Source of the DNA: Bdellovibrio bacteriovorus
GTDB taxonomy: Bacteria; Bdellovibrionota; Bdellovibrionia; Bdellovibrionales; Bdellovibrionaceae
Reading direction: 5' to 3'
Assembly: GCF_001592755.1 (NCBI RefSeq)
Contig: NZ_LUKF01000020.1
Location: 1 to 64,000, forward strand
DNA: 64,000 nucleotides
The notes beneath the pieces are model-generated. The model had not been told where the DNA came from. It searched no databases and was given only the letters and a program-made list of their open reading frames with translations. Of the stretch, positions 2,576-6,838 are shown piece by piece. The position numbers and the translations under genes are program-made. The stretch's first letter is position 1; each line of letters starts with the position of its first letter.

Positions 2576-4984
2576 ATGCAGCGAGGTAAGCAAACTAAAA
2601 AAGGTGAGAGTCCCACGACTCGTGTCAACTATGAGGATCACAGTCTTAAGTTCTTAGACTGGGTGGATTCCATTGGCCTAGAGAAAACCTTCTTTGGTCG
2701 CATCGTTCAAGTCATGGAAGAAAAATTCTTCATCCGCCGTGCTGCCTTGATCTTCCTTTACTGCGTCCTTCTTTCTTATACGATTTTCTATCAATTAGAC
2801 GTTCCTTATAACTTCAACGTCGGCGACGTCGCGAAATTCGATGTGGTTTCTCCGATCGGTTTTGAAATGACCGACGAAGTCACCACCGAAGAAAAGCGCT
2901 TCAAGGCCGAATATTCGGTGCCGATCGTTTACGACTACGACACCAGCGTCTTTGAAAGAGTGTCCGTCAACCTGATCCACTCCTTCAGAACCATGCGCGC
3001 GTATTACCGCGAAACAAAATGGTCGCCAATACCGTCAGAACATCGCCGTCAGGTGAAGGACTTCTTCCAGCACAAAAAGCAATTCGAAAAAGAATTGGGA
3101 GTGGTGGTTTCAGATTTCATGTTCGAATGGCTGATTGATCTGAAGTTCACACCCAGAATTGAAGCCGTGATCATTCGTAACCTAGAAAGCTGGTACGACA
3201 AAAAGATCGCAGAAGCCCCAGACCGTTTTATCCCGGCGAATCAAGCAAGTGTCCTAGCCCGCGTCGTGCATAAAAACAACTTGGGTAAAGAGTTCCCCAT
3301 CCCACGTGAAGAAATCCAAGATTTGCAGGCGCCAGAAAATTTCGAGTTCGATTCAAAAAAAGACCTGAACAGATTCTCTGAAAGTGACCAGGCCAACCTT
3401 CTGTATTTCGCTAGATCCTTGCTAGTCCCGAACCTGACCTTGAATAAACAAGAGACAGCGTCAAGAAGGCAGTCCGCTCGCGATGCGGTGATTCCGGTCA
3501 CAATCACGATTAAAAAGAACCAAGCCATTATTTCTCAAGGCTCCGTGATTCAACCGGGTCAGATGGCCGTCATTAAACAAATCGAAAACATTCGCGCAGA
3601 CAAGCGAAAAGACATCATGGCGCTTTCAATGGCCCTGATGCTTTCCGTAGCGATTTTAGTCTTCTTCTCGTACCTGAAACGTTTCACGATGAACAAAGTG
3701 AAAATCGAGTTTAAAGACGTGACCGTGATGATGCTTATCGCGTTCGGAGCGATTCTTTTCACAAAGATTTACATGTTCATCACCGATGCGGCCTTCGCCT
3801 CAAAAATGGGTCATATCATTCCTCCGGCCATCTTCCTGTATGCGGCTCCGGTGGCTGCGGGGCCGATGTTGGTGGGCCTGCTTATTTCCTACGGTGAAAT
3901 CGTATGGCTCTTCACGGCCTTCCTTTCGGTGTGCTTGGGTATCATGGTCGACTACAATTACAGCTTCATGTTTGTCAGCTTGGTCGGTGGTATCGCGGCG
4001 GCTCGCGGGGTCTTTAATTGCAAAACTCGTAACGACATTTACTTTGCCGGGGTCAGAACGGGTGTAGTCAATGCCCTGATGATCGCGTTCATTTTAACAA
4101 TGACGAAGTTTGATCAAGAGGGCGGACTTAAAGAAATCCTTCTTTCAATCCCCGCGGGTTTCTTAGGCGGTATCTTCAGCGCGCTCGTCACGATGATGTT
4201 CATCCCGCTCCTGGAATCCATCTTCAACTACACAACCGACGTTAAACTTCTTGAACTGAGCAACCTGAATCATCCATTGCTAAAAGAGATGATCGTAAAA
4301 GCTCCGGGAACATATCATCACTCGATGATGGTGGGTTCGATGGTAGAGGCCGCAGCCGAAGAGATCGGAGCCAATCCGCTCTTAGGTAAAGTTATGTGCT
4401 ACTACCACGATATCGGTAAGATGGAGCATGCGAACTATTTTATTGAAAATCAAAAACCAGGACACAACCCTCACGATCACATTTCTCCATTCATGAGTAA
4501 GACCTTGTTAGTGGCGCACGTGAAAGACGGTATCGAGATGGGGATGGCCTACAAACTAGGTAAGCCGATCTTAGACGGTATCGTTCAGCATCACGGAACG
4601 ACGTTGATTTCTTATTTCTACAACAAAGCTTTGGATCTAAAAAAAGAAGACGATCCAGAAATCAGCGATCAAGATTTCCGTTACCCAGGTCCTAAACCTC
4701 AGTTCCGTGAATCTGCACTTTGCATGCTTGCAGACAGTATCGAAGCGGCGGCGCGCTCACTCGATGAACCAACGCCAGCGCGTCTGCAAAACATCGTTCG
4801 AAATATCATCCAAAGAAAATTCTCGGACGCACAGCTGGACGAGTGTAATCTAACTCTGAAAGATATTTCGAAAGTCGAAGCCGCCTTCGTGCGCATTCTT
4901 CTGGGTATTTACCATCAACGTATCGACTATCCGCGCAGCGCGGGTGGTGGATTGGGCGACACCAATGCAACTTCTGATCGTTAA
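2576..4984 (+). CDS. 7TMR-HD family phosphohydrolase, PgpH-like
   Basis: The 802-residue protein has one N-terminal membrane segment (about 54-72) and a large extracytoplasmic domain (about 80-340). About seven hydrophobic segments follow (350-560), then a cytoplasmic HD domain with the first His near 580 and HDIGKM at about 611-616. This is the order of the 7TM-7TMR_HD family, whose PgpH members hydrolyse cyclic di-AMP. The substrate here is inferred from the family only. The gene overlaps ybeY, an association also common in Firmicutes, where phoH, pgpH and ybeY cluster. Confidence 0.9.
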   Translation: MQRGKQTKKGESPTTRVNYEDHSLKFLDWVDSIGLEKTFFGRIVQVMEEKFFIRRAALIFLYCVLLSYTIFYQLDVPYNFNVGDVAKFDVVSPIGFEMTDEVTTEEKRFKAEYSVPIVYDYDTSVFERVSVNLIHSFRTMRAYYRETKWSPIPSEHRRQVKDFFQHKKQFEKELGVVVSDFMFEWLIDLKFTPRIEAVIIRNLESWYDKKIAEAPDRFIPANQASVLARVVHKNNLGKEFPIPREEIQDLQAPENFEFDSKKDLNRFSESDQANLLYFARSLLVPNLTLNKQETASRRQSARDAVIPVTITIKKNQAIISQGSVIQPGQMAVIKQIENIRADKRKDIMALSMALMLSVAILVFFSYLKRFTMNKVKIEFKDVTVMMLIAFGAILFTKIYMFITDAAFASKMGHIIPPAIFLYAAPVAAGPMLVGLLISYGEIVWLFTAFLSVCLGIMVDYNYSFMFVSLVGGIAAARGVFNCKTRNDIYFAGVRTGVVNALMIAFILTMTKFDQEGGLKEILLSIPAGFLGGIFSALVTMMFIPLLESIFNYTTDVKLLELSNLNHPLLKEMIVKAPGTYHHSMMVGSMVEAAAEEIGANPLLGKVMCYYHDIGKMEHANYFIENQKPGHNPHDHISPFMSKTLLVAHVKDGIEMGMAYKLGKPILDGIVQHHGTTLISYFYNKALDLKKEDDPEISDQDFRYPGPKPQFRESALCMLADSIEAAARSLDEPTPARLQNIVRNIIQRKFSDAQLDECNLTLKDISKVEAAFVRILLGIYHQRIDYPRSAGGGLGDTNATSDR

Positions 4985-5414
4985 TGAATCTAAGCACGCC
5001 GTGCCTCGCAAATTCATCACGGAATGGATGGACGAAGTGGTCAGTGAGCTTAAAAAACGTCGCATCCTCAAAGCCGCCCACGCGAAAAAAGAACTCACCT
5101 TGGTGTTCTTAGATAAAAAGCCCGCGCAGAAAATCAATTTCGAGTTTCGCGGTAAAGACTACGCCACAGATGTCCTTAGTTTTGACTCGATGGACCCGAT
5201 TTCTTTCGGGGAGCTTGTCATGTGTCCCGAAGTTCTAAAGCGCCAAGCTAAAGAACATAAACTCAGTTTTCAACATGAATTGGGATACATGCTTTTGCAT
5301 GGGGTTCTTCATTTATTGGGCTATGATCATGAGACCAATGAAAAGGACGCCAAAGAAATGTTCGACCTCCAGGACGCTGTTTTCGAAAAGCTTTTGAAAA
5401 AACTCTCTGCCTAA
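4944..5414 (+). CDS. ybeY: Endoribonuclease YbeY (rRNA maturation factor)
   Basis: The 156-residue protein ends with the zinc motif HGVLHLLGYDH (H-x3-H-x5-H), diagnostic of YbeY, a metal-dependent RNase for 16S rRNA 3' maturation and ribosome quality control. A second possible start at 4965 (MQLLIVNE) fits the usual N-terminus better and would give 149 residues. Either start overlaps the 3' end of the HD-domain gene, implying translational coupling. Confidence 0.95.
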   Translation: MVDWATPMQLLIVNESKHAVPRKFITEWMDEVVSELKKRRILKAAHAKKELTLVFLDKKPAQKINFEFRGKDYATDVLSFDSMDPISFGELVMCPEVLKRQAKEHKLSFQHELGYMLLHGVLHLLGYDHETNEKDAKEMFDLQDAVFEKLLKKLSA

Positions 5415-5467
5415 ATCGGGCTCAATTCCTCTATATTGCTGCTTAAGATCAAAAAATAAAAGATCCC

Positions 5468-5671
5468 CTCGGAAGAGACACTTTGCGCACCTTGATTTGA
5501 TCAAGTTTTAAGCGAAACCGGGGTGGGTCCATCAGTTTCCACTCTGAAACTCCCATATTTCGCAATTCGTCGAACGAACACACCCTGGCATCGAGATTGT
5601 AATAGGGAATCTGTGTTCTCCCTTGTCGCCTCCGAGAGCTTTTCCCCTCCCTGCTCGCGGAGGCGTTTTTC
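5468..5671 (+). ncRNA. Structured RNA with terminator before prfB
   Basis: Four nested or adjacent stems can be drawn by eye. P1 pairs CTCGGA-aga-GACA (5468-5480) with TGTC-gcc-TCCGAG (5624-5636). P2 is CTTGAT/ATCAAG (5491-5505). P3 combines GCGAAA, TGGG and AGTTTC with GAAACT, CCCA and TTTCGC (5512-5563). P4 pairs GAACACA and CCCT with AGGG and TGTGTTC (5576-5618). A strong terminator follows and its 5' strand uses the same bases as the 3' side of P1, so the two are mutually exclusive. It may be a free-standing small RNA (6S-like is one option) or a riboswitch/attenuator. No known riboswitch core was recognised. Confidence 0.5.
5627..5670 (+). terminator. Rho-independent terminator upstream of prfB
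   Basis: CGCCTCCG (5627-5634) pairs with CGGAGGCG (5658-5665). The stem extends by GAGC/GCTC after one mismatch, so 12 of 13 positions pair, and TTTTT follows at 5666-5670. It ends one base before the prfB -35 box. Confidence 0.85.
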
Positions 5672-5699
5672 TTGACAGACTAGGTCCCCCAGATACACT
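5672..5699 (+). promoter_or_regulatory. Sigma-70-type promoter for prfB
   Basis: A consensus -35 TTGACA (5672-5677) is followed, with a 16-bp spacer, by TACACT (5694-5699, 4 of 6 consensus). The predicted start falls at about 5706-5707, on the prfB ATG itself, which implies a leaderless mRNA. No Shine-Dalgarno is seen before that ATG. An inverted repeat CCCCAG/CTGGGG (5687-5703) overlaps the -10 region. Confidence 0.5.
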
Positions 5700-5706
5700 G
5701 GGGCCT

Positions 5707-6838
5707 ATGTCTATCGTTACTGAATCATCGGAAATCAAAAGCAGAATCGGCGCTCTCGAAAGTTTCTCGACGGAACTTCGGGGGTATCTTTGACCTAGAT
5801 AAAAAGAAAAAGCGTCTTGACGAGCTTGCGATCCAAGCCGAAAACCCCGCGCTGTGGGAAAAGCCTGCAGAAATGCAAAAACTCAATAAAGAAAAGACCC
5901 TGCTTGAAAGAGCGGTGGGAGAGTTTGATTCTTTCGCCAACCGACTGAGCGATGCCAAAGTTCTTTTGGAAATGGCAATGGAAGCTCAAGATGAGGGCAG
6001 CTTCAGCGAAGTGAAAGCCGAAGTCGATTCCTTAGAAAAATACGGACAAGATTTAGAATTAAAGCGAGTTCTTAATGGCGAACTCGACACGAACAGTGCT
6101 TACTTATCGATCAACTCGGGCGCCGGTGGGACGGAGTCCTGTGATTGGGCCGAGATGCTTCTGCGTATGTACACGCGCTATGCCGACAAACACGGCTATA
6201 AGGTCAGTGTTGTCGAGATGACCGAAGGCGAAGGAGCGGGGATCAAATCCTGCACTCTTTTAGTCGAAGGACCTTACGCTTATGGCTACTTGAAAGCAGA
6301 ATCGGGCGTTCATCGCCTCGTGCGTATTTCTCCGTTTGATTCCAATGCTCGTCGACACACTTCTTTTGCGTCTGTGTTTGCGTGGGCCGAGGTCGACGAC
6401 GACATCAATATTGAAGTTCGTCCTGAAGACACTCGCGTTGAAACTTTCCGTTCTAGTGGGGCGGGTGGACAGCACGTGAATAAAACCGACTCTGCAGTTC
6501 GTATGTACCATATTCCAACAGGCATTGTTGTTTCCTGCCAAATGGAGCGTTCGCAAATCCAAAATAGAGAAAAGGCGATGAAGATGTTAAAAGCGCGCCT
6601 TTACGAATTGGAAATTGAAAAGCGCAATGCTGAAAAAGACGCGATGAACTCGCAGAAAAAAGCCAACGAATGGGGATCGCAAATTCGTTCTTACGTGATG
6701 CACCCTTATCAAATGGTGAAAGACCACCGCACGGACTTTGAAACCAATCAAGTGGACGATGTGATGGACGGGGATTTAGATGGCTTTATCATGGCTTATC
6801 TAAAATCCCAAATCACGACAGAGGCGAAACCTCAGTGA
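5707..6838 (+). CDS. prfB: Peptide chain release factor 2 (programmed +1 frameshift)
   Basis: A 28-codon first frame begins at ATG 5707 and stops at TGA 5791-5793. The site has the classic GGGGG-TAT-CTT-TGA-C layout: an internal Shine-Dalgarno-like G run, then slippery CTT before TGA C. A +1 shift (join 5707..5790, 5792..6838) gives about 376 residues. RF2 reads UGA and UAA. The anticodon-mimic SPF lies at 208-210 and the catalytic GGQ at 253-255, matching E. coli spacing. When RF2 is scarce the UGA is read slowly and frameshifting rises, giving autoregulation. Annotation from the internal ATG at 5873 would lose the N-terminal domain. The stop overlaps the GTG of the next gene. Confidence 0.97.

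Follow-up and report, generated by a model that had tools for sequence, protein, structure and literature searches.

In Helicobacter pylori, the C/U-rich terminator loop of the small RNA RepG pairs with G-rich mRNA leaders (PMC8295292). A comparable mode of action is described for sX13 of Xanthomonas, which uses C-rich loops to bind G-rich motifs close to translation starts and does so without the help of Hfq (PMC3771888). Another described small RNA, Pxr of Myxococcus xanthus, has a predicted sigma-54 promoter with an upstream enhancer region; a CCCCCCACCCC stretch is implied by the published probe, and the loop of its stem-loop SL1 is essential (PMC5568312, PMC5684412). Within the genus Bdellovibrio, the attack-phase small RNAs and merRNA of B. 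bacteriovorus are likewise intergenic (PMC3627812).

Here we describe the interval between ybeY and prfB (ATG at 5707) in a window of 64,000 nucleotides of B. bacteriovorus DNA, to which all positions below refer. Most likely, and with good confidence for the explanation as a whole, this interval holds an independent, sigma-54-driven RNA of about 60 nt with a C-rich loop (Table 1). Comparison between genomes shows the promoter elements, the hairpin, the loop conservation and the separate prfB promoter: we identified prfB in each of the 24 genomes of the genus and compared the DNA ahead of it in prfB orientation.

Table 1. Features in and around the ybeY–prfB interval (window positions).
Feature	Position	Strand	Basis
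ybeY, upstream neighbour	4944–5414	+	TIGR00043
Conserved upstream block 1 (TTTGCGC...TTTTAAGCGAA), putative activator site	5482–5516		Identity 0.64 versus 0.42 and 0.36 in the flanks; presumed role
Conserved upstream block 2 (TTTCGCAANNNGTCGAA), putative enhancer-binding-protein site	5558–5574		Identity; presumed role
Predicted sigma-54 promoter, -24 TGGCA (5586–5590), -12 TTGTA (5597–5601)	5585–5601	+	Invariance in 12 genomes
Predicted small RNA gene, about 60 nt	5612–5670	+	z -4.27 for 5612–5671; covariance model; predicted start
Intrinsic terminator hairpin of the small RNA, T-run 5666–5670	5627–5670	+	Compensatory changes in 6 of 12 pairs
C-rich loop motif UCCCCUCCCU, proposed seed	5643–5652	+	CCCCUCCCU in all 12 orthologues
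prfB promoter TTGACA (5672–5677)-N16-TACACT (5694–5699)	5672–5699	+	Sequence; TTGACA-type kept in genomes without the small RNA
prfB (release factor 2), start 5707, programmed +1 frameshift at CTTTGA	5707–6838	+	TIGR00020 and sequence

Terminator Hairpin and Overall Fold

The hairpin CGCCTCCG-A-GAGC / GCTC-G-CGGAGGCG (5627–5665) is 97.9% paired over 12 orthologues, with compensatory changes in six of its 12 pairs, and none of 500 shuffles matched it on pairing and covariation. The intrinsic terminator with a T-run that had been proposed before prfB is thus confirmed by sequence and covariation. The original prediction also drew a four-stem, multi-branched fold of about 170 nt (P1–P4). In that fold, the 3' strand of P1 (5468–5473 with 5631–5636) doubles as the 5' strand of the terminator, so that the interval would be a cis-acting riboswitch or attenuator, a leader of about 170 nt in which P1 and the terminator compete to control prfB. 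On paper, this pairing is possible in the present genome, and the minimum-energy fold of 5466–5645 is multi-branched (z -2.07). P1 is not conserved, however, and neither is the aptamer-like fold. Covariation in P1–P4, sought in the 12 orthologues, was not found (score 0.135 versus 0.130 after shuffling), and the pairing in their alignment showed no excess (63.0% of cells versus 62.7% shuffled); on every measure applied to this 12-sequence alignment, the structure did no better than with shuffled partners. RNAalifold retains the terminator and four pairs that join nearly invariant columns, and nothing else. Covariation across orthologues therefore upholds the terminator hairpin but not P1–P4. 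Folded alone, the upstream part (5466–5611) is no more stable than shuffles (z -0.10), while 5612–5671 reaches a z of -4.27. A plausible folded RNA can evidently arise by accident from promoter DNA that adjoins a true terminator.

The riboswitch or attenuator reading is further weakened by the absence of an Rfam match, by the conserved sigma-54 promoter inside the supposed aptamer (see below) and by the position of the prfB promoter. The latter was found where it had been proposed, directly behind the terminator, with its -35 box starting two bases past the T-run. As prfB has its own conserved promoter beyond the terminator, co-transcription with the leader is not expected, and as a TTGACA promoter is also present in genomes without the element, prfB and the small RNA would be separate units. 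Altogether, regulation of prfB in cis appears very improbable. By the spacing of TTGACA-N16-TACACT, transcription of prfB would begin at most a few bases from the ATG (window positions 5672–5709), and the prfB mRNA is therefore probably near-leaderless.

A second, divergent 6S-like RNA would share the intergenic location, a length of about 170–180 nt and a closing stem. Nonetheless, we regard it as extremely improbable: beside the lack of a conserved fold, an Rfam search returned no family at the locus, 6S (RF00013) giving no match there even at E up to 10, and the sole 6S match of the genome lies on another contig (G000:C19:219049-219225). The small RNA matches nothing in Rfam or in the literature searched. 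Its HD100 position (1409136–1409226, taking genome G005 as HD100) is absent from the published small RNAs of B. bacteriovorus (PMC3627812), which counts against the proposed RNA, although the published list is confined to attack-phase-specific RNAs.

Distribution in the Genus

The element was recognized before prfB in 12 of the 24 genomes of the genus, and a covariance model built on promoter and RNA together recovers exactly these 12, with one copy each. Under strict filters, it matched no other genome among the 141 of the order, and extra copies elsewhere in the genome or the order were not found with this model either. A pattern scan of genome contigs returned two Bdellovibrio contigs that match at this locus, besides four unrelated organisms judged to be chance matches. 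In most genomes without the small RNA, ybeY lies almost against prfB, with the TTGACA promoter kept. In G017, of the element itself only remnants are left. Presence of the element is clustered on the (poorly resolved) prfB tree, the best tree requiring four changes, which makes several losses or gains likely. A reading frame of the DUF222/HNH endonuclease type occurs at 527–1447 of the window, and a similar HNH-type frame lies directly before prfB in G017 (L056), the genome in which the small RNA is disrupted. The two occurrences suggest that HNH-type genes are mobile within the genus.

Predicted Sigma-54 Promoter and Upstream Blocks

Upstream of prfB, sequence identity is concentrated in islands (5482–5516, 5556–5575, 5585–5604 and the hairpin), and drops to 0.36–0.42 in the stretches between them. 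The region of block 2 (5556–5575) has a mean pairwise column identity of 0.77, against 0.36 and 0.41 in its flanks, and its spacing from the sigma-54 promoter is near-fixed. In the next island, TGGCA-N7-TGTA, both TGGCA and TGTA are invariant in all 12 genomes, while the seven bases in the middle vary. The sigma-54 -24/-12 consensus is TGGCAC-N5-TTGCW. Judged by its sequence, the invariant island is a promoter of this type, conserved at the right distance from the predicted RNA start, with a -12 element that reads GT rather than the usual GC. RpoN is encoded in this genome, and the wider pattern TGGCAC-N5-TTGYW occurs 14 times in it, compared to seven times for the reversed pattern. The eight TTGCT and the two TTGTA sites all fall between genes, 19–169 nt ahead of a gene with the same orientation, and all four TTGTT sites are within reading frames. 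TTGTA is therefore found where promoters are expected.

Two further exact copies of the TTGTATTA promoter in the genome precede protein genes and not small RNAs. Block 2 has a single exact copy in the genome, the one before prfB. A regulon sharing this block was rejected, as genomic copies with at most two mismatches are no commoner than those of a reversed control (45 versus 70). Elsewhere in the genome (L079 27–2419; G000:C1 around 407000), the gene for a sigma-54 activator precedes a sigma-54-type promoter (TGGCACTAGTCTTGTATTA); the protein encoded downstream has a weak likeness to part of a sigma-54 interaction domain.

The Proposed Small RNA and Its Loop

The predicted start at 5612 lies about 12 nt beyond the -12 element, at a well-conserved GTGT motif, and yields an RNA that comprises a 15-nt tail (UGUGUUCUCCCUUGU) and the terminator hairpin. 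The loop sequence CCCCUCCCU, preceded by U or C, is kept in 12 of 12 orthologues despite changes in the stem. It is retained even in the most diverged orthologue, and also in G014, although paired changes have altered several positions of the stem there. The RNA thus has a conserved C-rich loop within a stable hairpin, as expected of C-rich-loop trans-acting small RNAs. Since termination has no need of such a constraint on the loop, it points to a pairing seed.

The element might instead be no more than a terminator that keeps ybeY transcripts out of prfB, without any functional small RNA. Its place immediately before the prfB promoter suits this role, and half of the genus lives without it. 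Insulation, however, leaves both the invariant sigma-54 elements with the near-fixed upstream blocks and the conserved loop sequence unexplained, and we consider it unlikely. The features fit the ordinary architecture of a free-standing small RNA gene under a promoter of its own. An independent small RNA had been offered as the alternative in the original prediction; that part holds up, but the RNA would be about 60 nt long and start from an internal sigma-54 promoter instead of spanning 170 nt.

Candidate Target

A search of the 24 genomes for GGGAGGGG close before an ATG retrieved one gene common to several RNA-bearing genomes. It encodes an OlsB-like GNAT acyltransferase (Acetyltransf_5), which in NCBIfam scores best against OlsB families without reaching their cut-offs. 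Orthologues of the gene occur in 23 genomes. Among the 12 RNA-bearing genomes, eight have GGGAGGGG as the ribosome-binding site of this gene, against none of the 11 RNA-less genomes examined, a contrast to be read knowing that the gene was picked by searching for a loop match and that related genomes are not independent. In those eight genomes, the duplex predicted between the loop and the OlsB-like leader amounts to -19 to -23 kcal/mol; it is weaker in the HD100 group (about -13 kcal/mol) and in G014 (-11 kcal/mol). With a stand-in loop, genomes lacking the RNA mostly give -7 to -14 kcal/mol, but G007 (-20 kcal/mol) and G017 (-16 kcal/mol) show that G-rich ribosome-binding sites of this gene also occur in some RNA-less genomes. 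The number of G-rich start sites per genome does not separate genomes with the RNA from those without, and such sites are not visibly commoner in the former. The complementarity is at most suggestive of targeting, and the OlsB-like gene is the best, albeit tentative, candidate.

Proposed Mode of Action

For the proposed RNA, we infer the start site, expression, activator, repression mode and target. From the two conserved upstream blocks, a bound activator would switch on sigma-54 RNA polymerase, which would start transcription at about 5612 and stop at the hairpin ending at about 5670. In the resulting product of about 60 nt, a 15-nt single-stranded tail would be joined to the terminator hairpin that presents the UCCCCUCCCU loop. 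This loop may pair with the G-rich ribosome-binding sites of target mRNAs, possibly including that of the OlsB-like N-acyltransferase (ornithine-lipid type), and block their translation without Hfq, while prfB would be transcribed apart from its own promoter. No match to the Hfq family was found in this genome, five of 14 control genomes giving one, and the lack of a detectable Hfq fits C-rich-loop RNAs that work without it, such as sX13. Rather doubtful at present is the idea that a sigma-54-controlled, Hfq-independent C-rich-loop RNA sets ornithine-type membrane lipids in the predator life cycle with the terminator loop as its sole seed.

Regulatory RNAs known from Bdellovibrio are few, and Hfq appears to be lacking in this genome. 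Post-transcriptional control in a predator would become more accessible through a small RNA that is compact, has a recognizable promoter and a well-defined seed, and offers a target that can be tested.

Comparison with Known Small RNAs

Pxr, from another predatory bacterium, resembles the Bdellovibrio RNA in its sigma-54-type promoter with an upstream region. Pxr differs in being 108 nt long, in having three stem-loops and in adjoining nla19, and no homology is claimed. The likeness to RepG lies in an independent small RNA with the terminator loop as pairing site, the pairing being predicted in our case; target and genome setting differ, and the likeness implies no common ancestry. Whereas sX13 has three stem-loops with C-rich loops, the Bdellovibrio RNA would have a single hairpin, the terminator, and would extend the C-rich-loop mode of action to another lineage without Hfq.
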